A DNA stretch of 64,000 nucleotides, from positions 1 through 64,000 of the forward strand of contig JAUIDR010000006.1 in NCBI GenBank assembly GCA_030428565.1. Reading direction: 5' to 3'. Positions 42,594 through 61,430 of the stretch are shown here, one piece after another (position 1 is the first letter of the stretch; every line of letters begins with the position of its first letter). The stretch is from Alphaproteobacteria bacterium (lineage in GTDB: Bacteria > Pseudomonadota > Alphaproteobacteria > UBA7985 > JAUIBT01). A program made the position numbers and the translations under genes. The notes under the pieces are model-generated. The model saw nothing but the letters and a program-made list of their open reading frames with translations, searched no databases and was not told the origin of the DNA.

Positions 42594-43178
42594 ATGCTGC
42601 TGATCTTGCGTCCCCTAGTGTGGCTGAACTCGCACGTTCTGGCCCTTGGTAGGCACATTGCCTGGATGGCGTTGGCTCTGATGGTGCTGGTGATCCTGGC
42701 GCAGGTGTTCTTTCGCTATGTCCTCAATAATGCACTGGCCTGGCCGGACGAAGCCGCGCGCTTTCTCATGCTCTGGATGACCGCGCTGATGGCGCCGACA
42801 GCGATGCGCTGGGGTGGTTTCGTGTCGATCGATATGCTGCCTTCTGCGCTTGGCCAACGGGCGGGGCAAATCATGACCTTCATCTTGCTGGCCATGGCGC
42901 TGGTGGTGCTGCTGGTCGCGGTTCAACATGGCTACAAGCACACCTTTGGTTTTGGTGGCAAATTCAACAGTTCGTCATTGCGGCTACCTTTGGACTGGTT
43001 CGGTATGGAGACCGTCAAAGTCAAGCTGCGCTATATGTATGGTTCGCTGTTGGTCTGCGTCGTCCTGTTGATCTCGGTCACGGTTGAGCTGTTGTTGCGT
43101 TCTGCGATTCTCATCATCAACCCCCAAGCAAAATTGCCGAGCGTTGGTGCGCCCAGCGGTCCGATTGGAGGCGAGTGA
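42594..43178 (+). CDS. TRAP transporter small permease (DctQ-like)
   Basis: ILAQVFFRYVLNNALAWPDEAARFLMLWMTALMAPTAMRWGGFVSIDML. ATG 42594 behind CAGGAGGTGA. Confidence 0.92.
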   Translation: MLLILRPLVWLNSHVLALGRHIAWMALALMVLVILAQVFFRYVLNNALAWPDEAARFLMLWMTALMAPTAMRWGGFVSIDMLPSALGQRAGQIMTFILLAMALVVLLVAVQHGYKHTFGFGGKFNSSSLRLPLDWFGMETVKVKLRYMYGSLLVCVVLLISVTVELLLRSAILIINPQAKLPSVGAPSGPIGGE

Positions 43179-44677
43179 TGCTCGCTCTATTCCTGCCGGT
43201 ATTCTTGGTCTTTTTGTTGATTGGTCTGCCGGTCTTTTTCGCGCTGCTGCTCGCGCCGGGGCTCTTGTTGATGCTCAACGGTCAGGAGCGTGACGTCGCC
43301 TTGCTCTATCGCAATGTCTACAACGGCATGGATAGCTTTCCGCTGATGGCGCTGCCCTTTTTTGTTCTGGCCGGCGAATTGATGAACCGCGGCGGGATTA
43401 CCATTCGCTTGGTGGAGTTTAGCCAAGCCCTGATGGGCCATCTGCGCGGCGGGCTGGCGCACGTCAACATCCTAAGCTCGATTTTGTTCGCTGGGCTCTC
43501 GGGCTCGGCCGTGGCCGATACCTCGGCTCTGGGGTCGACGCTCATCCCGGCGATGGAAAAGAACGGCTATTCACGTAAATTTGCGGCGGCGGTGACGGCA
43601 GCCAGTTCGGTCATCGGGCCCATCATCCCACCGTCGGGCATCATGATTATCTATGCCTACGTGATGGGGGAGAGCGTTGCCGCCCTATTTTTGGCCGGAA
43701 TTGTGCCGGGCATTATGGTCGGCCTAGGTCTCATGGTGATGGTACGCTTGTTGGCTGATCGCTATGACCTGCCCAAAGCTGAGCGTATTGTTAGTCCCAA
43801 TCAGACCATCAGCGCGCTTGAATCCTGGGTCTCCTTTGCCTTGATCCGCGTGAATGTAGCGGGCCTTTTGATGCTGCTGGCATCGGGCCTATCTGCGCTG
43901 TTGAGCAGCCTGACCGGCTGGAATGTGAGCTGGAACGGCTGGTTGGTCTTCGTGGTGCTGTTGCCCTTGGCACATGTCCTCATGATGTGGCTGCGCGGCC
44001 AGGTCTCCAACGATTTTCGCATCATTTGCAAGAAGGCCGTCGCGCCCTTGCAGACGCCCATTATCATCTTGGGCGGCATTTTGATTGGGGTCTTCACGCC
44101 GACAGAGGCCTCAGCTATAGCCGTTGCTTACGCCTTGTTAATTGCCTTCGGTGTGCTGCACAGCTTGCGATTATCTGATCTGCCTGCAGTCTTAGCTAAG
44201 GCGGCCTTGTCGTCCGCTAGTGTCCTCTTGTTGGTGGGCGCGGCGGTGGCCTTCAAGACCGTAGTCAGCCTCAGTCACGCCCCAGAACAGCTCACCCACT
44301 TGATCTTGGGTTTGACCGAAAACCCGCTGCTACTGCTGTTCTTGATCAACATCCTGTTGTTCGTGGTGGGGATGTTCTTGGATGCCGGGCCCGCCATCAT
44401 CATTTTGGGTCCAATCTTGGGTCCGATCTTCGTCGATTTGGGCGTTCACCCGGTTCACTTCGCCATCATCATGTCGGTCAATTTGACGGTCGGCTTGGCG
44501 ACCCCGCCGATGGGGCTGGTGCTGTTCGTTGCGTCTTCCGTCTCGGGCGAAAAGGTCGAGACGATTTCCCGGGCAATTCTGCCCTTCTTAGCGGTCGAAG
44601 TCATCGTGATCTTCTTGATCACCTATGTACCGGCCATCTCAATGACAATCCCGCGCTTGACGGGCTTCGTCCAATAA
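43175..44677 (+). CDS. TRAP transporter large permease (DctM-like)
   Basis: LPFFVLAGELMNRGGIT, LSGSAVADTSALGSTLIPAMEKNGYSRKFAAAVTAASSVIGPIIPPSGIMIIYAYV. Confidence 0.95.
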   Translation: MMLALFLPVFLVFLLIGLPVFFALLLAPGLLLMLNGQERDVALLYRNVYNGMDSFPLMALPFFVLAGELMNRGGITIRLVEFSQALMGHLRGGLAHVNILSSILFAGLSGSAVADTSALGSTLIPAMEKNGYSRKFAAAVTAASSVIGPIIPPSGIMIIYAYVMGESVAALFLAGIVPGIMVGLGLMVMVRLLADRYDLPKAERIVSPNQTISALESWVSFALIRVNVAGLLMLLASGLSALLSSLTGWNVSWNGWLVFVVLLPLAHVLMMWLRGQVSNDFRIICKKAVAPLQTPIIILGGILIGVFTPTEASAIAVAYALLIAFGVLHSLRLSDLPAVLAKAALSSASVLLLVGAAVAFKTVVSLSHAPEQLTHLILGLTENPLLLLFLINILLFVVGMFLDAGPAIIILGPILGPIFVDLGVHPVHFAIIMSVNLTVGLATPPMGLVLFVASSVSGEKVETISRAILPFLAVEVIVIFLITYVPAISMTIPRLTGFVQ

Positions 44678-44712: not shown

Positions 44713-45774
44713 ATGCTTAAATTAACCTTAAAGGCGCTGTTGGCCGCCGCTGTGCTGGTGGGGGCTCCCGTCCTCAGCGCCACGGCTGCGGACTACACTA
44801 TCCGTGCCACCGCAAACTCGAACGAGAATGATGAGGACTATGACGGCCTGGTGGTCTTCAAGAGCTTCGTTGAGAGTGCATCGAACGGTGCGATCGAAGT
44901 CGAGCTGTTCATCGGCACCCAGCTTTGCGCCAACGGCGCCGAGTGTTTGCAGGGCGTGGCTGACGGCTCGATTGATGTCTATATCTCGACATCAGGCGGG
45001 GCTGCGGGCATCTTCCCCTACGTGCAGGTTCTTGATTTGCCCTACCTGATGGCCAACGACCGCGTGGCGGAAGCCGTTCTGTCGGGCGATTTTACCCGCA
45101 AGATGCGCGAAATGGCGCTGGCAGATTCTGACGGCACCATTCGCTTGATGACCATCGGCAACACAGGCGGTTGGCGTAACTTTGCCAACACCAAGCGGGT
45201 CGTTCGCACCCCCGACGACTTGGCGGGACTGAAGATCCGTACCGTTGTTGCGGACCTGCCGCAGGAGCTGGTGCGCGCGCTGGGCGCTTCACCGACTCCC
45301 ATTCCGTGGCCCGAGCTGTTCACTTCGTTCCAAACCGGTGTGGTTGAAGGCTCGAAGAACGGCATCACCGACATCATGGGCATGAAATTCCCCGATGCGG
45401 GCTTGCAGTACGTAACGCTGGACGGTCACGCCTACATGGGCGCCTTGTGGTGGATGAACAATGCTAAGTTCATGGATATGCCCGAAGATCTGCGCCGCGT
45501 CGTCGTCGATGGCTTTGCTGCTCTGCAACAGGCTACCTTCGCCTCGCCAAAGCGTAAGTCGATCCAGGCCTATTCTGATTTCGTCGCTGGCGGTGGCTCG
45601 CTCTATGTGCCGAGCCCGGCAGAAAAGGCCATGTTCCGCGAAGCCGCAGCACCGGTCTATGATTGGTTCAAGTCCAACATTCAAGGCGGCGGTGAAATCT
45701 TTGATGCCTTGGTCGCGGCGGTTGCCGAGGCCGAAGCGGATCTGGAAGCTGGCATGGCCGCCGATCTGAAGTAA
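44713..45774 (+). CDS. TRAP transporter substrate-binding protein (DctP-like)
   Basis: Signal peptide; DLAGLKIRTVVADLPQELVRALGASPTPIPWPELFTSFQTGVVEGSKNGITDI. Confidence 0.93.
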   Translation: MLKLTLKALLAAAVLVGAPVLSATAADYTIRATANSNENDEDYDGLVVFKSFVESASNGAIEVELFIGTQLCANGAECLQGVADGSIDVYISTSGGAAGIFPYVQVLDLPYLMANDRVAEAVLSGDFTRKMREMALADSDGTIRLMTIGNTGGWRNFANTKRVVRTPDDLAGLKIRTVVADLPQELVRALGASPTPIPWPELFTSFQTGVVEGSKNGITDIMGMKFPDAGLQYVTLDGHAYMGALWWMNNAKFMDMPEDLRRVVVDGFAALQQATFASPKRKSIQAYSDFVAGGGSLYVPSPAEKAMFREAAAPVYDWFKSNIQGGGEIFDALVAAVAEAEADLEAGMAADLK

Positions 45775-46031: not shown

Positions 46032-46544
46032 CTAGCGAAACGGGTAGAGCCAAACCCGGTAGTCTTCGATCAAAATATTGGCTTGTTCGATTTGCTCGCG
46101 TGACATCTTCTTGACCACCTCCTCTTGGGAAATAGCCGCGTCGGGATCGCCCCCGATCGCTGACAGGACGTACCAAGTGTAGGCGCGAACCAGGTCAGGA
46201 GCTGGCATGCCGCGCCCCACTTCATAGTACCAACCAATACCCGATTGAGCCCCAGCATGTCCTTTCAAAGACGCGCGCAAATACCACTCGAAGGCGCGCA
46301 CGTCATCGCGTTCGACGCCCAAGCCCGAAGCGTACATGACACCGATCAGCTCTTCAGCTTCGGCGTTGCCTGCGCGTGCGGCAGGCAGCAGCTCGGCCAT
46401 GGCCGCCTGGTAGTTGCCAGCGTCCATCAGATCGCGCGCTGTCTCTATTTCTGCCGCCGCGGGACTGGCAAAGCTCAGAAGACAAGCCAAGCAGGCCGTC
46501 GCCAAAAAGCCGGGCTGGGGGCGTTTAGACAGGTTGAGCAGCAT
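46032..46544 (-). CDS. Secreted Sel1-repeat (TPR-like) protein
   Basis: Signal peptide MLLNLSKRPQPGFLATACLACLLSFASPAAA; repeats AEAEELIGVMYASGLGVERDDVRAFEWYLRAS / AGAQSGIGWYYEVGRGMPAPDLVRAYTWYVLSA. Start moved to ATG 46544. Confidence 0.8.
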   Translation of the reverse strand: MLLNLSKRPQPGFLATACLACLLSFASPAAAEIETARDLMDAGNYQAAMAELLPAARAGNAEAEELIGVMYASGLGVERDDVRAFEWYLRASLKGHAGAQSGIGWYYEVGRGMPAPDLVRAYTWYVLSAIGGDPDAAISQEEVVKKMSREQIEQANILIEDYRVWLYPFR

Positions 46545-46586: not shown

Positions 46587-47972
46587 TTGGCGCGAAGCAG
46601 TGGGCGCCGATCCCAATCCTGGTTCGCGCGCGGGTGGACGATCAAGCAGGCCGCCATTGCGGTTTTGATCGCCTGCGCTGGTCTGGTCGCTTTCGCGCCT
46701 GCCCATGCAAACCCTTTTCCGCCTGCATTGCAATCCTCTGATTTTCTCGATTTCGACGATGATCTCGCCAAGTTGGGACAACTTCTGTTCTTTGATCCGA
46801 TCTTGTCGGGTAACCGCAATATCTCCTGCGCCACCTGCCACAGTCCCGATCACGGCAGCAGCGATGGCCTCAGTTTGGGCATAGGCGAGGGTGGCGTTGG
46901 TCTTGGCCCCAAGCGCAGCCCTGGCCAAGGCGCCAGCCGTATCCGCAAGCGGATTCCGCGCAATGCGCCAGCGCTATGGAACCTTGGCGCTCGCCAGTTC
47001 AAGACCTTGTTCCATGATGGCCGTGTCAGCCATTCTGATATCTACGACAACGGGTTTAGCACGCCCGCGCAAGAATGGCTGCCCGAGGGGCTAGATAACT
47101 TGCTGGCCGTGCAAGCCTTGTTCCCCTTGACCGCTCAGTTTGAGATGGCCGGCGATCCGCTGGAAAACGAGATCGCGGGGGCTGCCTATGATCGCATCGA
47201 CGCGGTATGGCCCATCGTTACAAAGCGGGTGCGGACCAACCCCGAATATGCAGGGATGTTGATCGCGGCCTATGATGACTTGGATGATCCTCTGGACATC
47301 TCGATCGCCCATATCGTCAACGCCATCGCTGCCTTCGAGGCCCTGGAATTCCAGAGTATCGACAGCCCGTTTGACGCCTTTTTGGCCGGTGATTTGGATG
47401 CCTTGAACGACGAGCAACGCGCCGGAGCCGAATTGTTTTACGGCAAAGCTGGTTGTAGCGACTGCCACGCGGGCGCGCTCCAGACCGACCACGAGTTTCA
47501 TGCGCTCATGCTGCCCCATTTTGGGCCCGGTCGAACACGTCGCTGGGATACAATCGTGCGCGATGTCGGGCGCATGGGGGTCTCGGATCGCTTGCAAGAC
47601 GCTTATCGTTTCCGAACGCCTTCTTTGCGCAATGTGGCTTTGACCGCACCCTATGGGCACAACGGTGCCTACATGAGCCTTGAAGCTATGGTGCGTCATC
47701 ACCTGAACCCGCGTGCCAGCTTTGAAGCCTGGTCGCCGGACCAGGCCCGTCTGCCGGCGGTAGCCTGGCTGGCGGCCAGTGATTTCCTGCCCTTTGAAGA
47801 CAAGCGTGAGCGCGCGCGCCTCGCCCGTCGAGCAGACCTAGCGCCGCAGCAGCTGAGCGATGCGGAAATCGAGCAAATCCTGGCTTTTTTGCATGCACTG
47901 ACGGGGCGCGAGTCCATTGAGGGCCGATTGGGCCGCCCCGACCGCGTGCCGAGCGGCCTGGAAATCGACTGA
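46587..47972 (+). CDS. Diheme cytochrome c peroxidase/MauG family protein
   Basis: LAKLGQLLFFDPILSGNRNISCATCHSPDHGSSDG, GKAGCSDCHAGALQTDHEFHAL, FRTPSLRNVALTAPYGHNGAYMSLEAMVRHHLNP; signal-like ACAGLVAFAPAHA. Start approximate (TTG 46587). Confidence 0.88.
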   Translation: MARSSGRRSQSWFARGWTIKQAAIAVLIACAGLVAFAPAHANPFPPALQSSDFLDFDDDLAKLGQLLFFDPILSGNRNISCATCHSPDHGSSDGLSLGIGEGGVGLGPKRSPGQGASRIRKRIPRNAPALWNLGARQFKTLFHDGRVSHSDIYDNGFSTPAQEWLPEGLDNLLAVQALFPLTAQFEMAGDPLENEIAGAAYDRIDAVWPIVTKRVRTNPEYAGMLIAAYDDLDDPLDISIAHIVNAIAAFEALEFQSIDSPFDAFLAGDLDALNDEQRAGAELFYGKAGCSDCHAGALQTDHEFHALMLPHFGPGRTRRWDTIVRDVGRMGVSDRLQDAYRFRTPSLRNVALTAPYGHNGAYMSLEAMVRHHLNPRASFEAWSPDQARLPAVAWLAASDFLPFEDKRERARLARRADLAPQQLSDAEIEQILAFLHALTGRESIEGRLGRPDRVPSGLEID

Positions 47973-48004: not shown

Positions 48005-48919
48005 ATGACCCAGGTTTTCGTTATCGGTGTTGCCGTGGTGGATTTTGTGTTTGCGGTTGGCGCGCTGCCGACCCGTGCCGCCAAACATCGCGCCAAGCAG
48101 GCAGAAATTGTCGGCGGCGGTTGTGCGGCTAATGCGGCGGTGGCCATCGCGCGTTTGGGCGGACAGGCGCTGTTGGGCGCGCGGCTGGGCGACGACGCGC
48201 TGGGCGATATCATCGTGGCAGATTTGGAGTTTGAAGGCGTGGATACGGCATTGGTCCAGCGCTTTGCCGCTGCGCGATCTTCGTTCAGCTCGATCTATGT
48301 GGATGACCAGGGCGAACGTCAGATCATGAATTTTCGCGGTTCAGGTCTCGGCCTTGCGACCGATTGGATTGCCAGCGCGCCACCGGTTGATGCGGTCTTG
48401 GTCGATACGCGTTGGAGCGAGGGGGCCGTCGCAGGCCTCCAGCGGGCTAGAGAGCAGGGAGTCCCCGGCATCGTGGACGCCGAAGCGCCGATGGACTTTG
48501 AGGTTCTAACCGCCGCCAGCCACGTCGCCTTTTCGCGCGACGGGCTCTTGTCGCTCTGTGGGCTAGAGACCAGCACCGCGGCTGGCCCTCAGCTTGAAAG
48601 CGCCCTGCGCCAAGCAGGTCAGCGCTTGGCAACTTGGGTCTGCGTTACCGATGGCGCACTCGGCTGTTTCTATTTGGACGCCGGGCGTTTTGTCCACGAG
48701 CCGGTCTTGCCCATCACCGTCAGGGACACCTTGGCCGCTGGTGATGTTTGGCACGGCGCGTTTGCCCTGGCCTTGGGCGAAGGGCAGGGCGAGGGCGATG
48801 CGGTTCGTTTCGCCAATGCCGCCGCCGCGCTCAAGTGCCAGACGTTTGGCGGACGTAAGGGCAGCCCTGACCGCGCTGCCGTCATGACTTTTTTGAAGGA
48901 GAACCAGCAATGCAGTTAA
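48005..48919 (+). CDS. PfkB family sugar kinase, YihV (6-deoxy-6-sulfofructose kinase)-like
   Basis: GGGCAANAAVAIARLGGQALLGARLGDDALGD, RDTLAAGDVWHGAFALALGEG; extended resemblance from memory to E. coli YihV (ALPT..AK, SS.S.I.VD..GERQI.N, VL.DTRW.EGA, AALKC...GGR.G.PD). Confidence 0.85.
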   Translation: MTQVFVIGVAVVDFVFAVGALPTRAAKHRAKQAEIVGGGCAANAAVAIARLGGQALLGARLGDDALGDIIVADLEFEGVDTALVQRFAAARSSFSSIYVDDQGERQIMNFRGSGLGLATDWIASAPPVDAVLVDTRWSEGAVAGLQRAREQGVPGIVDAEAPMDFEVLTAASHVAFSRDGLLSLCGLETSTAAGPQLESALRQAGQRLATWVCVTDGALGCFYLDAGRFVHEPVLPITVRDTLAAGDVWHGAFALALGEGQGEGDAVRFANAAAALKCQTFGGRKGSPDRAAVMTFLKENQQCS

Positions 48920-49935
48920 CCCCCGGTAAGCTTTGGGGCCTGCGCCGCATGGCCGACGCCCATGGCGTGTTCAAAATGACGGCGGTTGACCAGCGCCCTC
49001 CGATCAAGGGGCCGATCGCTGCGCACATGGGCGTTGAGACCGCGCCCTGGGATCAGGTGGCCCGCTTCAAGGCGCTTTTGGTCGAGACTTTGCAGGAGCA
49101 GAGCACCGCAATGCTGTTGGACCCGCACTACGCCATTCCGCTCGCCATGGATACGCTCGCGCCCAGTAAGGGCTTGATCGTGACCCTGGAGGACAGCTTG
49201 TTTGACGAGACCGACGGCGGGCGCTTGTCGTCCAACATCGATGATTGGTCGGTCGCGAAAATCAAGCGCATGGGTGGCGATGCGGTCAAGGTGCTGGCCT
49301 GGTATCGCCCGGACGCCAGCGATAGCGTCAAGCAGGCGCAGCAAGACTACGTCAAACAAATCGGCGAGGATTGCGCGCGTTATGACATTCCTTTCTTGTT
49401 TGAGCTGTTGGTCTATCCCTTGGCCAACGATGCCCATCAGACCAAGGACTACATCGAGATGAAGGGCAAGAAGGCCGACCACGTTCTGGCCTCGGTCGAG
49501 GAGTTCGCCAAGCCCGATTACGGTGTCGATGTTTTTAAGTTGGAGAGCCCGGTCAACGCCTCTGACGCCGACGGTTCGGCGGAGGTGCAGGCGGTGTTTG
49601 ACGAGATGGCGGGGCTGGCGGGACGGCCCTGGGTTATGTTGTCGGCCGGGGCGGGCAAACCCGAGTTTCGTAAGGTGCTGGAGCATGCTTTTGCAGCGGG
49701 GGCTTCGGGCTTCTTGGCGGGGCGGGCGATTTGGCTGGACGCCTTCGGGGCCTATCCTGATTGGCAGGCCATCCGGGCGGGCCTCGAAGGACCGGCGCGC
49801 GACTATCTTATGGATATTGCTGCCCTGGCCGACGACAAGGCCGCGAATTGGTCCAAGCATGCCTGTTATGGCGATGCGGGCGCGGTTTTTCAGCCGGTTA
49901 GTTCAGATTTTCGCCATGAATACAGCGGTTTTTAG
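48910..49935 (+). CDS. LacD/YihT-type class I aldolase (tagatose-bisphosphate / sulfofructose-phosphate aldolase family)
   Basis: FKMTAVDQRPPI, GGDAVKVLAWYRPDAS, DVFKLESPVNASD, GRPWVMLSAGAGKPEFRKVLEHAFAAGASGFLAGRAIW. Confidence 0.85.
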   Translation: MQLTPGKLWGLRRMADAHGVFKMTAVDQRPPIKGPIAAHMGVETAPWDQVARFKALLVETLQEQSTAMLLDPHYAIPLAMDTLAPSKGLIVTLEDSLFDETDGGRLSSNIDDWSVAKIKRMGGDAVKVLAWYRPDASDSVKQAQQDYVKQIGEDCARYDIPFLFELLVYPLANDAHQTKDYIEMKGKKADHVLASVEEFAKPDYGVDVFKLESPVNASDADGSAEVQAVFDEMAGLAGRPWVMLSAGAGKPEFRKVLEHAFAAGASGFLAGRAIWLDAFGAYPDWQAIRAGLEGPARDYLMDIAALADDKAANWSKHACYGDAGAVFQPVSSDFRHEYSGF

Positions 49936-49944
49936 GGGATCGAG

Positions 49945-51327
49945 ATGAAGCTTGGTATTCTTGCCCTGGGGCGTGGCACCTTTGACTTGGACTTCGCGGA
50001 CCAGAACCTAGCCGCCATGTTGGCTGCCCTTGATGCGCAAGGGCACGACTTGGTCGGCCCGCGCCGCCTGCTGCTGGAGGAGGCCGAGACGCGCGCTGCC
50101 ATGGACGAGCTTGAAGCAGCAGCGGTCGATCAGGTCCTAATCTTGCAAGTGACATTCACCGATGCCTCTCTAACCTGCGCTATTTCGAAACGCTTTGCGC
50201 AGCCGCTGTCAATTTGGGCTATTCCTGAACCACGGATCGGCGGGCGGTTGCGGCTCAATTCATTTTGTGGACTGAACTTGGCTTCGCATGCGTTGGGTCT
50301 GCAGGAGCGGGCTTTCTCTTGGCTCTATGCGGCCCCAGATGCTGCGGTTCAATCGCAATTGACTGCTCTGCTGACAGGCGAGCGATTGGCAAAACCAATA
50401 GCCTTGGGTGCTGTACCGCCTGCGAGTGATGAAGGCCTAGCGCTTGCCGAGGCGGTCAAGGGCCAGCGTATCGCCCGCATTGGCGAGCACCCCGCGGGTT
50501 TTGATACCTGTGCTTACGATGCCACGGCGTTAGGCGATCTGGCAGGCGTTGAGGTCGATGCCTTGGAACTCGACGACATGTTCGACGCAGCCAAGGCCGC
50601 TCCAGAGGCGACCTGCCGGTCCTTGCGCGAGGTCGTTGCCGGGCAAGTCCAAGGCCTGGATGAGGTCAACGCAGAAGAATTGGCGCGCTCCTTGCGGCTG
50701 AAACTGGGGCTCGAAGCGCTGCGTGCCAAGGGCAAATATGATGCCTTCGCCATTCGCTGTTGGCCTGAGACCTTTACCGAATACGGCGGCGCGGTCTGCG
50801 GTCCTGCGGGCATGCTGGGTGAGGCGCGGGTTCCCTGCGCTTGCGAAGCCGATGTCTATGGTGCGCTAACGCAGCTGTTTTTGTCAAAGGCAGCCGACGC
50901 ACCGGTGTTTTTGACGGACTTAGTGGATGTGGACGGTCCAGACGATACGGCTGTGGTCTGGCATTGCGGGCAAGCGCCCCTGTCGATGCGCGATCCAGAA
51001 GTTGCGGCCGAAGCCACCATTCACACCAACCGCAAGCAGCCGCTGTTGTATCAGTTTACGCTGCGACCCGGGCCGGTGACCTTGCTGCGCATCTCTCAAG
51101 CACGCAACACGCCGCAAATGATTTTGGGGCTGGCCGATATGCAGGCGCGGCCCATGTCCTTTACTGGAACCTCGGGCGTTCTGCGGTTTCGCCGTCCCGC
51201 CGACCAGGTGTTGAGCGATATCATCGACAGCGGCCTGGAGCACCACCTTGCCCTTGCTTATGGCGATCATCGCGCGGTTTTGCGCGGCCTCGCCGGGGCC
51301 CTCAATCTTCCCATTGTTGAATTGTAA
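49945..51327 (+). CDS. L-fucose/arabinose isomerase-like sugar isomerase
   Basis: 460 aa; AIRCWPETFTEYGGAVCGPAGMLGEARVPCACEADVYGALTQLFL, FLTDLVDVD...WHCGQAPLSM, FTGTSGVLRF. Confidence 0.8.
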   Translation: MKLGILALGRGTFDLDFADQNLAAMLAALDAQGHDLVGPRRLLLEEAETRAAMDELEAAAVDQVLILQVTFTDASLTCAISKRFAQPLSIWAIPEPRIGGRLRLNSFCGLNLASHALGLQERAFSWLYAAPDAAVQSQLTALLTGERLAKPIALGAVPPASDEGLALAEAVKGQRIARIGEHPAGFDTCAYDATALGDLAGVEVDALELDDMFDAAKAAPEATCRSLREVVAGQVQGLDEVNAEELARSLRLKLGLEALRAKGKYDAFAIRCWPETFTEYGGAVCGPAGMLGEARVPCACEADVYGALTQLFLSKAADAPVFLTDLVDVDGPDDTAVVWHCGQAPLSMRDPEVAAEATIHTNRKQPLLYQFTLRPGPVTLLRISQARNTPQMILGLADMQARPMSFTGTSGVLRFRRPADQVLSDIIDSGLEHHLALAYGDHRAVLRGLAGALNLPIVEL

Positions 51328-51344
51328 GTCGCGGAGCTTTCGCC

Positions 51345-52442
51345 ATGATTGTTCGTTACGGTGTGATTGGCTCTGGCATGATGGGCCAGGAGCATATCCG
51401 CAATCTTGCCCTGTTGGAGGGGGCAAAAGTCACCGCAATTGCGGATCAAAACGCTGATATGAGAGCGCAGGCGGGGGCGCTGCTAGAGCCGCAAGCCCAG
51501 GTATTTGCAGACTATAAGCAGCTTGTCGCCTCGGGCGCTTGTGATGCGCTGGTGGTGGCCACGCCAAACGACCTTCATCACGCGATGATGCTGGACTTGC
51601 TGGAATCGCCGCTGCCGATCCTGTGCGAAAAGCCGCTCTGTACTACGGTCAGTGAGTGTCGTGATGTTGTGGCTAAAGCGGAAGGTCGCGCGGCCCCGGT
51701 CTGGGTGGCGATGGAATACCGCTATATGGACCCGGTGCAGCGCTTGCTTGAGGAAGTGGGGGCTGGGCGCATCGGCCAACCACGCATGGTGGCCATCCGT
51801 GAGCACCGCTTTCCTTTCCTAGACAAGGTGGCGGCTTGGAACCGCTTCAACGCGAGCACCGGCGGCACTTTGGTCGAAAAATGCTGTCATTTCTGGGATC
51901 TGATGCGGCTCATTCTGCAATCAAATCCGCGGCGGGTCTATGCTTCTGCCCGGCAGGATGTGAACCACAAGGGTGAAGCCTACGATGGCCGAGCACCGGA
52001 CATCTTAGACAATGCCTTTGTCACGCTCGACTTCGAGAATGGCGCGCGGGCGATGCTGGATCTTTGCATGTTTGCAGAGGGCTCGCGCTGGCAGGAAGTT
52101 GTGTCGGTCACTGGGGATCTGGCGCGAATTGATGCCAAGGTGCCTGGTCCTGCGCGTTTTTCGGCCAACGGGCATCAGCACGCCGCCGAACTGGAGATCT
52201 CTGAGCGCGCCAGCAAAACTGTCACCCGCGAAACGATTACCGGCGACCCGCGCATTTTGGCGGCAGGCGACCATTTTGGCTCGACCTTCTATCAGCATGA
52301 GCGCTTCTTGCGCTTGATCCAGACAGGCGTTGGCAAGCCAGAAGTCGATTTGAAAGACGGCCTCTGGTCGGTTCTGATCGGGCAGGCTGCCGAGCAGAGC
52401 GCTCGCAGCGGCCAAGCTGTTGAACTGGGGGACCTAAAATGA
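51345..52442 (+). CDS. Gfo/Idh/MocA family NAD(P)-dependent protein
   Basis: IVRYGVIGSGMMGQEHIRNLALLEGAKVTAIAD, DALVVATPNDLHHAMMLDLLESPLPILCEKPLCTT, GGTLVEKCCHFWDLMRLIL. Confidence 0.9.
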   Translation: MIVRYGVIGSGMMGQEHIRNLALLEGAKVTAIADQNADMRAQAGALLEPQAQVFADYKQLVASGACDALVVATPNDLHHAMMLDLLESPLPILCEKPLCTTVSECRDVVAKAEGRAAPVWVAMEYRYMDPVQRLLEEVGAGRIGQPRMVAIREHRFPFLDKVAAWNRFNASTGGTLVEKCCHFWDLMRLILQSNPRRVYASARQDVNHKGEAYDGRAPDILDNAFVTLDFENGARAMLDLCMFAEGSRWQEVVSVTGDLARIDAKVPGPARFSANGHQHAAELEISERASKTVTRETITGDPRILAAGDHFGSTFYQHERFLRLIQTGVGKPEVDLKDGLWSVLIGQAAEQSARSGQAVELGDLK

Positions 52443-53431
52443 CTCATTTTGGACAACTGCCGAGCGGCGAGAGCGTCGAACGGGTTGCGATTTCTGGCGG
52501 CGGCCTTCGCGCCCATGTCCTCACTTACGGTGCTGTATTGCAGGATCTTTTCCTGGAAGGACACGCCGCCCCCTTGGTGTTGGGCTTCGATAATCTGGCC
52601 GCCTACCTAAACCATTCTCCCTATTTCGGGGCCACGGCTGGGCGTTGCGCCAATCGCATTCGCGATGGACACTTGGAGCTAGACGGGCAGAGCTATCAGC
52701 TCGACACCAACTTTTTGGGCAAACACTGTCTGCACGGCGGCGTGGCAGGCATGGGCAAGAAGCTTTGGCGCCTTGAGCGCCATGATGCCAGCGCTGTCGT
52801 GCTTCGCCATGAGTCGCCCGATGGTGACATGGGTTTCCCGGGCGACTTGCAGGCACGCTTGCGCATCTGTCTATTGGAGGGCGGTGTGCTGGATATCGTC
52901 ATGGAAGCGACGACCAACGCGCCAACGCTCTGCAACCTGGCCCATCATAGCTATTTCGTGTTGGACGATAGCGGCTCGGTCGCGGACCATCAGCTTCAGA
53001 TCGCCGCGCAGCGCTATACGCCGGTAGACGAGGAACTCATACCCACCGGCGAACTGGCGTCGGTCGTTGGCACGCGGTTTGATTTTCGCCGGCCCGCCGC
53101 TGTGGCGCAGGGCCAACCCTTGCTCGATCACAATTTTTGCCTGTCAAACGAGCGCGAGGCCTTGAGGCCGATGGCTTGGTTGCGGAGCTCGAAATCCGGC
53201 GTCAGCATGGAGCTGCGCACCACCGAGCCGGGGTTGCAGGTTTACGATGGGGCCAAGGTTAACATCGACCCGCCAGGCCTGGATGGACGGCCGATGCGCG
53301 CGAATGCGGGCATTGCCTTGGAGCCTCAGGTCTGGCCTGACGCCAACCATCATCCGCATTTCCCGCAAGCCATCTTGCGGCCTGGCCAGAGCTATCGCCA
53401 GCACACACAGTACATCTTTTCGAAGGGCTAG
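52439..53431 (+). CDS. Aldose 1-epimerase (mutarotase)
   Basis: YFGATAGRCANRIRDGHLELDGQSYQLDTNFLGKHCLHGGVAGMGKKLW, NLAHHSYFVLDD, GIALEPQVWPDANHHPHFP. Confidence 0.93.
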   Translation: MTHFGQLPSGESVERVAISGGGLRAHVLTYGAVLQDLFLEGHAAPLVLGFDNLAAYLNHSPYFGATAGRCANRIRDGHLELDGQSYQLDTNFLGKHCLHGGVAGMGKKLWRLERHDASAVVLRHESPDGDMGFPGDLQARLRICLLEGGVLDIVMEATTNAPTLCNLAHHSYFVLDDSGSVADHQLQIAAQRYTPVDEELIPTGELASVVGTRFDFRRPAAVAQGQPLLDHNFCLSNEREALRPMAWLRSSKSGVSMELRTTEPGLQVYDGAKVNIDPPGLDGRPMRANAGIALEPQVWPDANHHPHFPQAILRPGQSYRQHTQYIFSKG

Positions 53432-53433
53432 AA

Positions 53434-54888
53434 ATGAGCGATTTCAACGGACTAATGATGCAGGCCAACCTGGTCGGCGGAGAGTGGATCGCAGCCGATA
53501 ATGCTCAACAGCTGGCCGTCACCAACCCAGCAACCGGCGCCGTCCTCGGGCAAGTTCCCAACTGCGGCGAAGCCGAGACCCAGCGCGCTATTGCTGCCGC
53601 TGCCGCTGCCTTTGATGACTATTCGCGCAGCGATTTGTCATTTCGCGTGGGTCTGTTGCACGACCTTCACGACGCCTTAATGGACAATCAAGAACCGCTA
53701 GCGCAGCTCTTGACCGCTGAGCAAGGCAAGCCCTTGTTCGAAGCGCGTGGAGAGATTGCCATCGGGGCGGCCTATGTGCGCTGGTTCGCCGAAGAGATCC
53801 GCCGCACTAAGGGCGAAATCGTCCCGGCGCCGGTCTCGGGACGTCGGCTGTTGGTCACCCATCATCCTGTGGGCGTCGTGGGGGCCATCACCCCTTGGAA
53901 CTTCCCGTCTTCCATGCTAGCGCGCAAGCTTGGTCCTGCGCTGGCCGCGGGCTGTACTCTGATCGTGAAGCCTGCCAGCGCCACACCCTATTCCGGCTTG
54001 GCCTGGGGCAAACTCTGCCAGGATGTCGGATTTCCGGCTGGTGTCGTAAATATCGTGACAGGCTCGGCGCGCGCCATCGGTGGGGCCATCATGCAGAGCT
54101 CAGAGGTTCGCAAAGTGACCTTCACCGGCTCGACGGAAGTCGGTAAGACCTTGCTGCGCCAGGCCGCTGATACGGTCAAGAAGGTCTCGATGGAGCTAGG
54201 CGGCAATGCACCTTTCATCGTTTTCGACGATGCCGACCTAGATGCTGCGGTGGCAGGGGCCATGATCGCCAAGTATCGCAACATGGGCCAGACCTGCGTT
54301 TGTACCAACCGCTTCTATGTTCAGGCCGGCATTCACGATGCCTTTGTCGAGCGCCTGACCCAAGCTACTGCTGCGCTTGTTGTCGGCAACGGCGCTGAGG
54401 ACGGCGTACAGCAGGGGCCCCTGATCGACATCGAAGCGGTCGAGAAAGTGGAAGCTCTGATCGCCGATGCCAGGGCCAAGGGCGGCCAAGTCGTGCAGGG
54501 TGGCAACCGCCACGCCAACGCGGGCACCTTCTTTGAGCCCACCGTCATCACGGGCGCGACTGCGGACATGCGCTTTGCCAGCGAAGAGATTTTCGGGCCT
54601 CTTGCGGCGGTGTTCAAATTCGACAGCGAAGAAGACGTCATTGAGGCGGCCAACGCCACCCGCTTTGGCTTGGCAGCCTATGCCTATACGCGCGACCTTG
54701 GCCGTAGCTTCCGACTGAACGCGCGTCTGGACTATGGTCTGATTGGCATCAATACGGGCATGGTGGCCACGGTTGAAGCGCCCTTTGGGGGCGTCAAAGA
54801 AAGTGGCATGGGCAAGGAGGGCGGCAGCCAAGGGCTGGAGGACTATATGGTCGGCAAATACACCTGTCTTGAAGGGCTGGGCGCATGA
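53434..54888 (+). CDS. NAD(P)-dependent aldehyde dehydrogenase (GabD-like; candidate 3-sulfolactaldehyde dehydrogenase)
   Basis: VGVVGAITPWNFPSSMLARKLGPALAAGCTLIVKPAS, MELGGNAPFIVFDDADLDAAV, NMGQTCVCTNRFYV. Confidence 0.92.
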   Translation: MSDFNGLMMQANLVGGEWIAADNAQQLAVTNPATGAVLGQVPNCGEAETQRAIAAAAAAFDDYSRSDLSFRVGLLHDLHDALMDNQEPLAQLLTAEQGKPLFEARGEIAIGAAYVRWFAEEIRRTKGEIVPAPVSGRRLLVTHHPVGVVGAITPWNFPSSMLARKLGPALAAGCTLIVKPASATPYSGLAWGKLCQDVGFPAGVVNIVTGSARAIGGAIMQSSEVRKVTFTGSTEVGKTLLRQAADTVKKVSMELGGNAPFIVFDDADLDAAVAGAMIAKYRNMGQTCVCTNRFYVQAGIHDAFVERLTQATAALVVGNGAEDGVQQGPLIDIEAVEKVEALIADARAKGGQVVQGGNRHANAGTFFEPTVITGATADMRFASEEIFGPLAAVFKFDSEEDVIEAANATRFGLAAYAYTRDLGRSFRLNARLDYGLIGINTGMVATVEAPFGGVKESGMGKEGGSQGLEDYMVGKYTCLEGLGA

Positions 54889-55799
54889 TCCTTGTCACGG
54901 AATTCATGGATCAGGCTGCGGTCGATCGCATGTGCGAACAGCACAGCGTTATTTACGAGCCCGCCTTGGCCGATCGCCAACAGGACATTCCGGCCGCTCT
55001 GACTGACGCGACGGCGCTGATTGTGCGCAATCGCACGCAAGTTACGACGGCGCTGCTGGCATCGGCTCCAAAGCTGAAGGTCGTGGGGCGCCTGGGTGTG
55101 GGGCTGGACAATATCGACCTGGAGGCTTGTGCGGCGCGCGGGGTCGAGGTGATACCCGCCACCGGGGCCAACACCCTGTCCGTCGCCGAGTACGTCGTCA
55201 CCAACGCTTTGGTTTTGTTGCGCAATGCCTACCAGGCGCGGGCACGCATGGAGGCAGGCGAGTGGCCGCGCGCGGATTGCTCGGGCCGCGAGGTGGCCGG
55301 GCGTTGGCTCGGTTTGATCGGCTACGGCGCGATTGCGCGCAAGACGGCAGAGCTGGCAATGGCGCTGGGCATGCAGGTCTGCGCCTATGATCCCGTGCTC
55401 GCGCACGATGATCCGGCTTGGTCGGGCGTCCGTCGCTGCGAGCTTGGCGAACTGCTGGCTTTGAGCGACGCAGTCAGCCTGCACGTGCCTCTGGTCGATG
55501 CGACCCGCCATCTCATCAACGCTGAGACCCTGGCGCAGATGGATAGCGATGCGGTTTTGATCAACGCTGCGCGCGGCGGGGTGGTGGATGAGGCGGCCTT
55601 GGCGGCGGCGATGCGCGATGGGCGGCTTGCCGGTGCCGCGTTGGACGTGTTCGAGACCGAGCCCCTGACTGCCGAGGCTGCGCAGGTCTTTGCCGGTTTG
55701 GACAATCTGATCCTGACCCCCCATATCGCCGGAGTGACCCAGGACAGCAACGAACGGGTCAGCGCGCTGATCGCCGACGCCGTGCTGGCCCGGCTTTAG
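54885..55799 (+). CDS. D-isomer-type 2-hydroxyacid dehydrogenase, SlcC ((S)-sulfolactate dehydrogenase)-like
   Basis: VTEFMDQAAV, ALIVRNRTQVTTALL, LKVVGRLGVGLDNIDLEAC, GLIGYGAIARKTAELAMALGMQV, SLHVPLVDATRHLI, HIAGVTQDSNERVSALI; resembles the Chromohalobacter SlcC pattern as remembered. Confidence 0.85.
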   Translation: MILVTEFMDQAAVDRMCEQHSVIYEPALADRQQDIPAALTDATALIVRNRTQVTTALLASAPKLKVVGRLGVGLDNIDLEACAARGVEVIPATGANTLSVAEYVVTNALVLLRNAYQARARMEAGEWPRADCSGREVAGRWLGLIGYGAIARKTAELAMALGMQVCAYDPVLAHDDPAWSGVRRCELGELLALSDAVSLHVPLVDATRHLINAETLAQMDSDAVLINAARGGVVDEAALAAAMRDGRLAGAALDVFETEPLTAEAAQVFAGLDNLILTPHIAGVTQDSNERVSALIADAVLARL

Positions 55800-56135: not shown

Positions 56136-57071
56136 CTAGCCCGCGAGCGCTAGGCCCTGACGCTGGCTGAAGTCCTGCACCACTTGGCGCACCTGCGCCA
56201 GGGTCAGGCCGTGTTCTTCGCGCAGGTAGGCATAGCTGCCGCAATACTTGGAGTAGCGGTCGGCGATACCAACGCGCTTGATCGGCAACGGTGCTGCCTC
56301 GCTCAGAGCCTCGCAGACTGCCGAGCCCATGCCGGCGAAGACGGAATGCTCTTCCAGCGTCACCACGGCTTGATGCCGCTGGGCTAGTGCGATCAGCGCC
56401 GCCTCGGGCAGGGGCTTTATCAGCGGCAGGCTGTAGGCGGCTATGCTAGCGGGGACCTCGGCCGCCAGATCGCGCGCCAGGGCCACCATGGAGCCCGTCG
56501 CCACCAGCGCCAGAGGCTGGTTCGAAGCGCCTGCCAAAGGGCAAAGCCCAGCGGCGTCTGGGCCCATAGGCTGAGCGTGGACCGCGCCGACATCGGCTTT
56601 GCCGATCCGAATATAGCTGGGGCGTTGACCCGCGTAGGCGCGCTCTAACGCCCAAGCCATCTCAACGTCATCACAGGGTGAATAGACATCCAGGCCCGCA
56701 ATGGCGCGGCTACAGGCGATATCTTCAGCGCACTGGTGGCTGGTTCCCAGCGTTGAATAGACAAAGCCAGCGCCATCACCAAACAGCACCACCGGTAGGC
56801 CATCGTGGGCGATATCTAGCTTGATTTGCTCGACGACGCGGGTCGGGATGAAGGCGGCCAGACCATAGACGAAGGGGCGGTAGCCCCCACGCGCCAAGCC
56901 CGCTGCCACGCCGACCATATTCTGTTCGGCCACCCCGCAATTGAGGTACTGGTCGGGGCACGCGCGACGCAGCTCGTCAAACAGCGCATAGCCGTGATCG
57001 CCGGTCAGCAAAATGAAGCGCTCGTCCTTTTTGGCCAGATCGACCAGGAACTTTGAGAAGACCTCGCGCAC
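56136..57071 (-). CDS. Transketolase C-terminal subunit (split transketolase)
   Basis: FILLTGDHGYALFDELRRACPDQYLNCGVAEQNMVGVAAGLARGGYRPFVYGLAAF; Pyr + C-terminal domains. Confidence 0.9.
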   Translation of the reverse strand: MREVFSKFLVDLAKKDERFILLTGDHGYALFDELRRACPDQYLNCGVAEQNMVGVAAGLARGGYRPFVYGLAAFIPTRVVEQIKLDIAHDGLPVVLFGDGAGFVYSTLGTSHQCAEDIACSRAIAGLDVYSPCDDVEMAWALERAYAGQRPSYIRIGKADVGAVHAQPMGPDAAGLCPLAGASNQPLALVATGSMVALARDLAAEVPASIAAYSLPLIKPLPEAALIALAQRHQAVVTLEEHSVFAGMGSAVCEALSEAAPLPIKRVGIADRYSKYCGSYAYLREEHGLTLAQVRQVVQDFSQRQGLALAG

Positions 57072-57074
57072 GGT

Positions 57075-57902
57075 TCAGTCCTCCAATTCGCGGTTGGCTT
57101 GGGCAAAGGTCTCGTCGGTTAGCCGCGAGTAGTGCCAGGCGTTGTTGTTCTCCATAAAGCTGACGCCCTTGCCTTTGACGGTCTTGGCGATCAGTGCTTT
57201 GGGGCGCGGGTCTTGACCGTCACAAAAGCGGGTCAAAGCGGCGTGCAGCGCCGTCTCGTCGTGGCCGTCCACAACAGCCGCTTCAAAGCCAAAGCTGGCG
57301 AATTTGGCCTCCATCGCGCCCAGGTCCATGATGTCAGCCGTGGAGCCCATGGCTTGCAGACCGTTTTCGTCCACGATGGTGATGAAATTGGCAAGCTTGT
57401 GCTGAGCGGCCAACAGCGCGCCTTCCCAGATGGGCCCCTCGTTGCTCTCGCCGTCGCCGATAATGCAAAATGTTCGCTGCTGGCTGCCGCTGCGTTTGGC
57501 GGCCAGGGCCAGCCCCAAGGCGACGCTGAAACCATGCCCCAGCGAACCCGACGTGACCTCTAGCCCTTGCGTGCGCGAGTCCGACAGGCCCATAAGCGCG
57601 CTGCCGTCGGAAAAATAGCGCGCGACGTGGCTGTCATCCAGCCAGCCGCGCTCCAGCATGCAAGCGTATTGTGCCATGACGCCGTGGCCCTTGCTGAGCG
57701 CCAAGTAGTCGCGCTGCGGGTGGTCGGGATCATTGCCGGGGTAGCGCAGAAAATCGCGGTGTAGGACGGCCAATATTTCGACCAGGGAAAAGCTGCAACC
57801 GATATGAACCGCGTTGCCCGCTTTGGCCATGGCCAGGATGCTACGACGCAATTGCTTTGGATCGAAAGCGCCGGCGAAGTAGTTGGCTTGGGTGCTGCTC
57901 AC
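57075..57902 (-). CDS. Transketolase N-terminal (TPP-binding) subunit
   Basis: SKGHGVMAQYACMLERG, GSLGHGFSVALGLALAAKR, CIIGDGESNEGPIWEGALLAAQHKLANFITIVDENGLQ. Confidence 0.92.
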   Translation of the reverse strand: MSSTQANYFAGAFDPKQLRRSILAMAKAGNAVHIGCSFSLVEILAVLHRDFLRYPGNDPDHPQRDYLALSKGHGVMAQYACMLERGWLDDSHVARYFSDGSALMGLSDSRTQGLEVTSGSLGHGFSVALGLALAAKRSGSQQRTFCIIGDGESNEGPIWEGALLAAQHKLANFITIVDENGLQAMGSTADIMDLGAMEAKFASFGFEAAVVDGHDETALHAALTRFCDGQDPRPKALIAKTVKGKGVSFMENNNAWHYSRLTDETFAQANRELED

Positions 57903-58867
57903 GCGCGCTCTCCCCCTGGCTGATCGGCAAAGTTGATGCGCTCTTTTTCGACGACCAGCGGCTTTTTGCGGACCTGGCTGTGGACCGCCGACAGGTACTC
58001 GCCCAAGACACCCATGAAAAATAGCTGCACACCGCCCAAAAAGAAGATGGCAACGATTATGGTAATGGTGCCTGGCGGGGCCAGCGAGCCCGCCGCTAAA
58101 AGCTGTGCCACAACGCTGTAAAGGGCAAACAGAACGCTCAAAATGCTGACGGTCATGCCGATAAAAATTGCCAGGCGCATGGGGACATTGGTGAAGGAAA
58201 TCAGACCGTTAACCGCTTGGTCGAACAGGCGGTAGGCGTTACCAGAGCTAATGCCGCGCTTGCGGGGCTTCATGTCATAGGTGATGCCGGTGGCTTCAAA
58301 GCCGCAGTTGGCGATGATGCCGCGCATGTAGGGGTAGTAGTCCTCGTGCTGCAAGACGGCCTTCAGCACCTGGCGGTCGATCAGTTGAAATTCGCCCGCA
58401 CCTTGCGGAACGTGGAAGTTGGTCATGCCCGAGACCAACTTATAGAAAATGGCGCGGCACTGGCGCAGCAGCCAGCTCTCTTTGCGGTTGGCACGCACGC
58501 CATAGACCACCTTTGCACCGTCTTCCCATTTTTTGACCATCTGCGGGATGATCTCCACCGGGTCTTGCAGGTCGGCGGCCAACATGACCACGGTGGCATC
58601 GCCGTCAGAGTGGCGATTGCCGTTGAAAAGATTGTGGAAGGGACCGAAATTGCGCGAGTTCAGAACCACTTTTACGCGCTTGTCTTCGGCCGCCAGCTCG
58701 CGAAGGATGGCCTCGCTGCGGTCCAGGGAAGCGTTGTCGCAAAAAATGTGCTCGTACTCATAGCCAGGCAGCGCGCTTGCAAAGGTATCGCGCACGGCTT
58801 CATAACATAGGCGAATGTTGGCCTCCTCGTTATAACAAGGGGTCACAATCGAGATCTTTTTGGTCAT
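57899..58867 (-). CDS. Glycosyltransferase family 2 (GtrB/DPM1-like, two C-terminal TM helices)
   Basis: KISIVTPCYNEEANIRLCYEAVR, MLAADLQDPVEIIPQMVKKWEDGAKVVYGVRANR; C-terminal TM pair; overlaps transketolase-N gene. Confidence 0.92.
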   Translation of the reverse strand: MTKKISIVTPCYNEEANIRLCYEAVRDTFASALPGYEYEHIFCDNASLDRSEAILRELAAEDKRVKVVLNSRNFGPFHNLFNGNRHSDGDATVVMLAADLQDPVEIIPQMVKKWEDGAKVVYGVRANRKESWLLRQCRAIFYKLVSGMTNFHVPQGAGEFQLIDRQVLKAVLQHEDYYPYMRGIIANCGFEATGITYDMKPRKRGISSGNAYRLFDQAVNGLISFTNVPMRLAIFIGMTVSILSVLFALYSVVAQLLAAGSLAPPGTITIIVAIFFLGGVQLFFMGVLGEYLSAVHSQVRKKPLVVEKERINFADQPGGERA

Positions 58868-59315
58868 GTCTAACAGTACCTCGCGCCCAGTTCGCGACTA
58901 GCGAGTCCAAATGATTTTCGTCCTGTCGCATGGCCCGAAGGCCGTGCTGGGCGAATGATTTGCATGACTAGGTACATGGGCCCGGCGTGCGGGTCAATTC
59001 GCGCTTACGACCAGCGCAGACGCTGTCTGTGGCAGGCGGCCAAGCCATTCCGAAAGCAGGTCGATTCGCAGTTCGGGCCTGCGCGCTGGTTCGGCGCCTG
59101 TGCCCGGCGGTAGGCGCGGGCAATTACCGCTCATCAATCAGAGCAATTTCTCGTTGGGTTGGCGTGATAAATATAGCAAAATCAGATAGTAAGCTCAATT
59201 AGCGCGAGCACCAATCGTTTTGTGCGGCCATTCGGCTTTATGCTAAGCCTTGTGTCCTTTGGCCTAGGCCGTCAATAAGTGGGGCTGAAGCAGGACCTGT
59301 CAATCGAGATCAAGA

Positions 59316-60623
59316 ATGAAACGACCCGAAGTACTGGACGCGGCGCGCGCCTTTTACCGCGAGCAACGCAAACCTGAATTCAAGTGGGGCCAGTCCTATA
59401 TCCCGCCGTCTGGCAAGGTGTTGGACGAGGATGATTTGGTCAACATGGTCGATGCCTCTTTGGATATGTGGCTGACGACCGGGCGCTATGGCCACGAGTT
59501 TGAAGAAAAATTCGCCGCGTTCTTTGGCGCGAAGTTTGCCTCGCTAACGGTCTCGGGATCGGCGGCCAACCTGTTGGCATTTTCTTTATTCACCAGCCCC
59601 AAGATGGGCGACGAGCGCATCTTGCCCGGCAGCGAGGTCATAACAGTTGCAGCGGGCTTCCCAACGACGGTCGCGCCGATTGTGCAAAATGGCTGCGTCC
59701 CGGTCTTTGTCGACGTAGATATTGCGACCCACAACGTACTGGTTGAGCGCATCGAGAGCGCTATTACCGACAAGACCCGCGCCGTGATGATCGCCCATGC
59801 CTTGGGCAACCCCTTTGACGTGATCGCGGTCAAAGAGATCTGTGAGCGTCACAACCTGCACCTCATCGAAGATTGCTGCGATGCGCTGGGCGCCACCATT
59901 GGCGGGCAATTGGTGGGCTCTTTTGGCACGGTCTCGACCTGCAGCTTCTATCCGGCCCACCATATCACCATGGGCGAGGGCGGGGCGGTCATGTGCCATC
60001 GCCTCAAGCATCAGCGGATTATCAACAGCTTCCGCGACTGGGGCCGGGACTGTTACTGCGACCCGGGTGTCGATAACACTTGCGGCAACCGCTTCGGTTG
60101 GACCTTGGGCAGCCTGCCCGAAGGCTATGACCACAAGTACACCTATAGCCACTTGGGCTATAATCTGAAGGTCAGCGATATGCAGGCCGCCGTTGGCGTC
60201 AGCCAGCTCAACAAGGCCAATGCCTTTATCGAAAAGCGCCGTCGCAACTTCGACATGCTGCACAGCAAGTTGGTCGCCGCCGGGCTTGATGAGCATTTCA
60301 TTTTGCCCGAGGCGACCCCGGGCTCGAACCCAAGTTGGTTCGGCTTCTTGTTGACCATCAAGGACGGCCAACGCCTGTCACGCCGCCGCTTGACCGAAAT
60401 GCTGGAAAACAAGCGGGTTGGCAGCCGTTTGCTGTTCGGTGGCAACCTGACCCGTCAAGTCGCGTTCGAAGGCGTCAACTACCGCGTTCGTGGCGATCTG
60501 ACCAACACCGACAAGGTTATGAACGACAGCTTCTGGCTGGGCGTCTGGCCCGGGTTGGACGAGCCGCATTTCGACTACATGACCGCTATGCTGACAGAAA
60601 GCGTCAAGGAGCTGGTATCATGA
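59316..60623 (+). CDS. rfbH: CDP-4-keto-6-deoxy-D-glucose-3-dehydrase (DdhC/E1, RfbH)
   Basis: GSEVITVAAGFPTTVAPIVQNGCVPVFVDVD; SFYPAHHITMGEGGAVM with His in place of the PLP Lys, diagnostic of E1-type dehydrases. Confidence 0.92.
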   Translation: MKRPEVLDAARAFYREQRKPEFKWGQSYIPPSGKVLDEDDLVNMVDASLDMWLTTGRYGHEFEEKFAAFFGAKFASLTVSGSAANLLAFSLFTSPKMGDERILPGSEVITVAAGFPTTVAPIVQNGCVPVFVDVDIATHNVLVERIESAITDKTRAVMIAHALGNPFDVIAVKEICERHNLHLIEDCCDALGATIGGQLVGSFGTVSTCSFYPAHHITMGEGGAVMCHRLKHQRIINSFRDWGRDCYCDPGVDNTCGNRFGWTLGSLPEGYDHKYTYSHLGYNLKVSDMQAAVGVSQLNKANAFIEKRRRNFDMLHSKLVAAGLDEHFILPEATPGSNPSWFGFLLTIKDGQRLSRRRLTEMLENKRVGSRLLFGGNLTRQVAFEGVNYRVRGDLTNTDKVMNDSFWLGVWPGLDEPHFDYMTAMLTESVKELVS

Positions 60624-61393: not shown

Positions 61394-61430
61394 CGCCCCA
61401 TTGAGCCTTTGAGAGAAACGCCGACACGCT

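Follow-up and report, generated by a model that had tools for sequence, protein, structure and literature searches.

Membranes of plants and algae contain the sulfur-bearing sugar sulfoquinovose (SQ). Of the sulfoglycolytic bacteria described so far, the majority excrete a three-carbon (C3) sulfonate and leave its breakdown to other species. SQ production has been estimated at 10 billion tons per year (PMC10755693), and the coexistence of both halves of the process in one bacterium has been called unusual (PMC12421959). The GH188 cluster of Actinobacteria bacterium IMCC26103 encodes a predicted sulfolactaldehyde (SLA) dehydrogenase, a 3-phosphoglycerate-dehydrogenase-like protein, SuyAB, a sulfofructose-1-phosphate (SFP) aldolase, a sulfofructose (SF) kinase, a fucose-isomerase-like protein and GH188; the authors suggested that it may represent a new sulfoglycolytic pathway, with no mechanism worked out (Backlund and Higgins 2024, PMC11465081). 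Here we describe a cluster with a nearly equal gene list in a stretch of 64,000 nucleotides (hereafter, the window) from the assembly of a marine-type alphaproteobacterium (GCA_030428565.1, contig JAUIDR010000006.1). We read this cluster as a hybrid, extended sulfo-Embden-Meyerhof-Parnas (sulfo-EMP) pathway with interchangeable desulfonation endings. The probability of this reading, which is based on sequence, is in our estimate about 0.84.

The core of the cluster is an operon of seven consecutive open reading frames (ORFs) on the + strand (48005-55799). Neighbouring ORFs overlap by 10, 4 and 4 bp or are separated by gaps of 9, 17 and 2 bp. ORF calling and family searches confirmed the ends, the packing and the gene families given in an earlier model-made reading of the letters (the first-pass annotation). 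A second congeneric species (L021) has the same gene order, as do many other genera, among them members of other families such as Shimia (L022, L052); the order is therefore not due to chance.

The gene at 51345-52442 (+) is key to the sulfosugar reading. Its product belongs to the Gfo/Idh/MocA family, as annotated before, when it was left without a role; it is now identified, by structure matches and residues, as a predicted NAD+-dependent GH188 sulfoquinovosidase of the SqgA type. Its scores against the solved GH188 structures were 402 (8zn9), 376 (8qc3) and 369 bits (8qc2), with 70 bits for the next structure, and these scores ruled out an ordinary dehydrogenase. Eight residues of ArSqgA contact SQ or are catalytic (Kaur et al., PMC10755693): Lys107, Tyr136, Arg166, Leu170, Lys172, Glu189, His193 and His321. 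The window protein has all eight with matching spacing, as Lys96, Tyr125, Arg155, Leu159, Lys161, Glu178, His182 and His310; across the homologues compared (72 of 72), none of them varied.

The first gene (48005-48919, +; PfkB, PF00294) encodes a predicted 6-deoxy-6-sulfofructose 1-kinase of the YihV clade. Its best PDB match was YihV (7ag6, 194 bits). With E. coli YihV it shares 41% identity (184 bits, against 66 bits for the next of the E. coli paralogues tested). In a tree that included the PfkB paralogues of E. coli and of its own genome, it joined E. coli YihV, apart from the other PfkB kinases, with support of 96/93. Lys27, Asn109 and Arg138 of the YihV structure are conserved in the window kinase; among the operon kinases, Arg138 was found in 63 of 63 and Asn109 in 54. 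The kinase is thus of the type used in the sulfo-EMP pathway of the E. coli yih genes.

The second gene (48910-49935, +) encodes a predicted class I SFP aldolase of the DeoC/LacD family, on the LacD side of PF01791. In the alignment, Lys210 falls on the LacD motif DVLKVE and would be the Schiff-base lysine. In the tree, this aldolase was split from YihT with full support and formed a clade of its own nearer to LacD, which ruled out plain orthology with YihT. Its identity to YihT is 27%, and it differs in this respect from the YihT-type aldolase of sulfo-EMP. The expectation of the first-pass annotation that kinase and aldolase would cluster with YihV and YihT therefore held for the kinase and failed for the aldolase. 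In addition, the families of the two proteins are not those of sulfo-EMP2, where SqiK belongs to PF00365 and SqiA to PF01116.

For the third gene (49945-51327, +), a predicted SQ-to-SF isomerase with an AraA/FucI fold, the only NCBIfam match was SftI (NF048012; 245.9 bits, well under the model's cut-off, E = 6.9e-73). Its AlphaFold model (mean confidence, pLDDT, 94.3) matched L-arabinose (AraA) and L-fucose (FucI) isomerases in Foldseek, and a PDB search with its sequence gave only spurious weak matches. Glu301, Asp325 and His433/434 are candidate metal ligands; the spacing of Glu301 and Asp325 equals that of Glu337 and Asp361 in FucI. No homologue of yihS (AGE family) was found near the operon. 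The replacement of YihS by a FucI-like isomerase, suggested earlier, agrees with the fold and, below the cut-off, with the SftI match, but it is not new in kind, as SftI and SqvD are known; SqvD belongs to the FucI family (PMC9594981). The fifth gene (52439-53431, +; PF01263, 259 bits) encodes an aldose 1-epimerase, the predicted SQ mutarotase.

The last two genes would convert the C3 product. An SlaB/GabD-type aldehyde dehydrogenase of the succinate-semialdehyde dehydrogenase (SSADH) family (53434-54888, +), the predicted SLA dehydrogenase, has Asn156, Arg164, Arg282, Glu254 and Cys288 at the spacing proposed for RlGabD. The SLA-binding residues proposed for RlGabD include Arg171 and Arg289, to which SSADH has equivalent arginines (PMC10599462). 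It is followed by a D-2-hydroxyacid dehydrogenase that we assign, by identity and context, as a predicted SlcC-type (S)-sulfolactate dehydrogenase (54885-55799, +). This enzyme is 58-62% identical to dehydrogenases encoded between SuyAB and ComC genes. Homologues lie in clusters of the order suyA-suyB-transporter-hydroxyacid dehydrogenase-Ldh_2 on Paracoccus and Methylobacterium plasmids, and in Paracoccus the gene described as SlcC likewise has SuyAB on one side and an Ldh_2 (ComC-type) gene on the other (PMC9594981). This identity and conserved context support the earlier view that an SlcC gene is appended to the operon.

Comparison with other genomes was decisive. The isomerase had at least 537 relatives among the 84,980 genomes scanned. 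The best 80 were examined, and removal of one duplicate left 79 loci, mainly from Rhodobacterales and Rhizobiales. Two loci that share only a distant isomerase (L026, L027) were left out of the comparison. Although many of the 79 loci are truncated, 70 contain a kinase, 70 the aldolase, 68 GH188 and 52 the SlcC-type gene. Genes for sulfopyruvate decarboxylase (comD/comE) were linked in 17 of them. For example, comDE directly follows the dehydrogenase gene in L022, with scores above the curated cut-offs of TIGR03845 and TIGR03846. Genes for sulfolactate sulfo-lyase (suyAB) were linked in 15 others, often with comC, for instance in Oceanomicrobium; the order suyAB-dehydrogenase-comC was seen in Hoeflea, Nitratireductor, Albidovulum and others. 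The two endings were never found together (0 of 79 loci), and one or the other was linked to the backbone in 32. Because ComDE and SuyAB, by family, act on sulfopyruvate or sulfolactate, this linkage indicates that the backbone yields a sulfonated C3 compound. Together with the GH188 site, the kinase clade and the SlcC type, it supports the sulfo-EMP route to sulfopyruvate that the first-pass annotation had drawn.

The endings were also sought away from the operon. Among 30 operon genomes, nearly all picked for having no linked ending, 19 had SuyB (at least 81% identity) and 8 had a ComE-like protein above 180 bits. SuyB was found in 16 and ComE in 5 of 190 genomes drawn from the class, some of which are themselves operon carriers. 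Overall, SuyB or a ComE-like protein was present in 26 of the 30 operon genomes; among operon-free genomes of the class, the figure was about 16 of 186.

Family searches of the genome from which the window comes (3.5 Mb, 99% complete) detected both endings. No desulfonation genes lie in the operon or elsewhere in the window, which by itself does not hold a complete mineralising cluster. A comD-comE pair is on contig C54 (ComE, 219.6 bits, just below the cut-off of 221.5), xsc is on C93 (948 bits), and yeiH-comC-suyB-suyA is on C95. Sulfopyruvate, the end point in the first-pass annotation, is therefore unlikely to be the end, given these genes and the linked endings of the relatives. An alternative is that, as in Arthrobacter, the product of the operon (sulfolactate or sulfopyruvate) is excreted and that the distant genes serve taurine, cysteate or imported sulfolactate. 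Indeed, comDE, xsc and suyAB are all outside the operon, xsc is beside taurine-transport-like and aminotransferase-like genes, and suyAB is beside a second TRAP (tripartite ATP-independent periplasmic) transporter. However, the same backbone is linked to an end module in the 32 relatives above, and SlcC would be needless for the excretion of sulfolactate. Moreover, SlcC is absent from the ComC-SuyAB cluster on C95, and the genome has no close SlcC homologue besides the one in the operon (next best, 40% identity). We consider excretion unlikely.

The substrate could be another sulfohexose, above all sulfofucose (6-deoxy-6-sulfogalactose), degraded via sulfotagatose and sulfotagatose-1-phosphate with identical downstream steps. 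SQ and sulfofucose yield the same (S)-sulfolactaldehyde, and LacD-side aldolases are related to tagatose-bisphosphate aldolase. On a Shinella plasmid, a related aldolase and a YihV-like kinase are beside genes of the short-chain dehydrogenase/reductase (SDR) and mandelate-racemase families that resemble published sulfofucose genes (PMC12421959). On the other hand, the GH188 of the operon has the residue that contacts the C4 hydroxyl of SQ (Glu189, here Glu178), the operon has no SfcH, SfcF, SfcD or SfcE genes, the only model match of the isomerase is an SQ isomerase, and a lysate of strain Merri had no sulfofucose isomerase activity. These points make sulfofucose quite improbable. A fucose- or rhamnose-type 6-deoxyhexose pathway giving lactaldehyde, formerly the main alternative, is compatible with the families of the FucI-like isomerase, LacD-like aldolase and aldehyde dehydrogenase but is scarcely credible in view of the sulfonate-binding residues of GH188, the YihV-clade kinase and the linkage to sulfopyruvate decarboxylase and sulfolactate sulfo-lyase.

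Several observations weigh against the extended SQ pathway. The aldolase is no YihT orthologue; because LacD-type enzymes are reportedly lax at C4, it leaves the C4 configuration of the sugar unfixed. The isomerase score is far under the SftI cut-off of 700 bits. The SlaB residues are common to SSADH and so do not separate the two. Six Silicimonas/Boseongicola loci (L051, L053, L054, L056, L058, L062) lack an adjoining aldolase and GH188, and four of the 30 operon genomes have neither end module. The Fisher test for enrichment of the endings (p ~1e-18) ignores shared ancestry, and its samples differ in taxonomy.

Gene order, families, residues, synteny and the presence of end modules were computed; from them we infer the catalytic steps, the transport substrate and the regulation, as follows. 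SQ or its glycosides would be imported, probably by a TRAP transporter. GH188 SqgA would release SQ from SQ-glycerol, and the mutarotase would equilibrate the SQ anomers. The SftI-like isomerase would convert SQ to SF, the YihV-clade kinase SF to SFP, and the LacD-side aldolase SFP to dihydroxyacetone phosphate and SLA. SLA would be oxidised by the SlaB-like enzyme to (S)-sulfolactate and this by the SlcC-type enzyme to sulfopyruvate. In the same cell, sulfopyruvate could then take one of two endings: ComDE would give sulfoacetaldehyde, from which Xsc would give acetyl phosphate and sulfite, or ComC would give (R)-sulfolactate, from which SuyAB would give pyruvate and sulfite. The family biochemistry behind these steps is published (PMC12890257, PMC10755693, PMC10599462, PMC9594981, PMC12421959).

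The interval 48005-55799 proved too narrow for the whole cluster, which in conserved form begins at about 41579, upstream of the kinase, and takes in a regulator, a transporter and an exported pair. A DeoR-family protein (41579-42349, +; PF00455 and PF08220), encoded before the TRAP genes in many syntenic loci, is the probable repressor or sensor. The TRAP genes are dctQ for the small membrane subunit (42465-43178, +; PF04290, conserved synteny; the real start is probably downstream of 42465), dctM for the large one (43175-44677, +; syntenic in relatives and mostly 64-87% identical) and dctP for the solute-binding protein (44713-45774, +; PF03480, TIGR00787; in 59 of 79 loci). DctP is the predicted importer of SQ/SQ-glycerol or sulfolactate. 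A di-haem cytochrome c peroxidase/MauG-like exported protein (46638-47972, + strand, start approximate; PF03150, two CxxCH motifs) is encoded 32 bp before the kinase gene and divergently from a Sel1-repeat exported protein (46032-46544, −; PF08238). The mauG-like gene was in 51 of 63 sequences holding dctP plus kinase or aldolase, and in loci with an inverted transporter (L079, L081, L084) it has shifted together with dctP. Among 85 sequences compared, sel1 was present in 52, the same frequency as for mauG. No link of this pair to SQ or sulfosugar use was found in the literature searched. Downstream of the operon and separate from it, 56136-57902 (−) with 57899-62546 holds a split transketolase-like pair beside a glycosyltransferase, a DegT/RfbH-like aminotransferase, a glucose-1-phosphate nucleotidyltransferase and a nucleotide-sugar dehydratase, resembling genes for deoxy- or branched-sugar surface polysaccharides.

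Some loci met in the survey differ in composition. The six Silicimonas/Boseongicola loci are compact kinase-isomerase-aldehyde dehydrogenase-SlcC sets. L088, L095, L103, L110 and L115 are TRAP-mauG-aldolase-isomerase-GH188 clusters with no recognisable kinase, which may be replaced or encoded elsewhere. In L023 and L024 (7949-14500), an isomerase, a LacD-side aldolase and a kinase that shares about 50% identity with E. coli YihV are beside GH31 proteins that differ from YihQ around the SQ-binding residues inspected. Plasmid pZZM402 of the ethanol-production organism Zymomonas mobilis ZM4 carries a probable SQ cluster (L128, 128-11361) of a class II aldolase, an aldose epimerase, a related isomerase (38%), a GH188-like protein (44%), major facilitator superfamily and TonB transporters and an SSADH-like gene. 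The Shinella plasmid (L136, 6081-12246) and an Arthrobacter plasmid (L138, 1090-9158) have sulfofucose-like SDR and mandelate-racemase or galactonate dehydratase genes near a kinase, a LacD- or YihT-side aldolase, an SSADH-like gene and a TSUP/TauE transporter, possibly mixed Entner-Doudoroff/EMP sulfosugar clusters. In genome G070, which has no match to the window isomerase, SuyB and a GH188-like protein are encoded about 4.5 kb apart on contig C56 (3012-4187, 8698-9789), a possible SQ mineralisation cluster.

If the proposed pathway operates, SQ breakdown and sulfite release, usually split between two bacteria, would take place in one cell, and both halves would be carried out, by one or the other ending, in many alphaproteobacteria, culturable Shimia, Tropicimonas, Hoeflea and Nitratireductor among them. 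The LacD-side aldolase would escape surveys that rely on YihT or SqiA. The linked genes make the fate of SQ carbon and sulfur directly testable in carrier strains. More tentatively, we suggest that the SftI-like isomerase, YihV-clade kinase and LacD-side aldolase form a third sulfo-EMP set which, with the interchangeable endings, provides one-cell SQ mineralisation in many marine Rhodobacterales and Rhizobiales, with MauG/Sel1 as an integral periplasmic part.

Separate publications already cover hybrid sulfo-EMP clusters, SuyAB-extended sulfo-transaldolase (sulfo-TAL) clusters, GH188 and the SlcC/ComC-SuyAB ending. In the literature searched, which did not cover Roseobacter SQ work, we found no LacD-side SQ aldolase, no comDE ending, no exclusive choice between two endings and no pathway of this breadth in Rhodobacterales and Rhizobiales. 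Within that literature, the suspicion of an undescribed variant in the first-pass annotation stands for an alphaproteobacterial pathway ending in comDE; single elements have been published, and the cluster type has a similar, published actinobacterial counterpart. The sulfo-EMP pathway of Arthrobacter sp. AK01 (PMC8873060, PMC10755693) shares with the window a YihV-type kinase, a class I aldolase, an SLA dehydrogenase and GH188 SqgA, but it uses a YihS isomerase and a YihT aldolase and excretes sulfolactate, with no SlcC, ComDE or SuyAB reported. Sulfo-EMP2 and the hybrid sulfo-EMP/EMP2 clusters (PMC9594981, PMC13372026) have the FucI-family SqvD and, in the hybrids, mixed enzyme sets, but with the class II aldolase SqiA in place of a LacD-side class I enzyme. 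Extended sulfo-TAL of Thermotogae and Chloroflexi (PMC9594981) likewise has SuyAB on a sulfoglycolytic cluster, in other phyla and by a transaldolase route. Paracoccus wurundjeri (PMC12421959) joins sugar splitting and C-S cleavage in one cell via (S)-sulfolactate, sulfopyruvate and (R)-sulfolactate, but it does so for sulfofucose, by an Entner-Doudoroff route and with no known SLA dehydrogenase. The IMCC26103 cluster has ABC (ATP-binding cassette) transporters and a Tyr at the Leu170 position of GH188, whereas the window has a TRAP transporter and Leu at this position, and many of its relatives have comDE.

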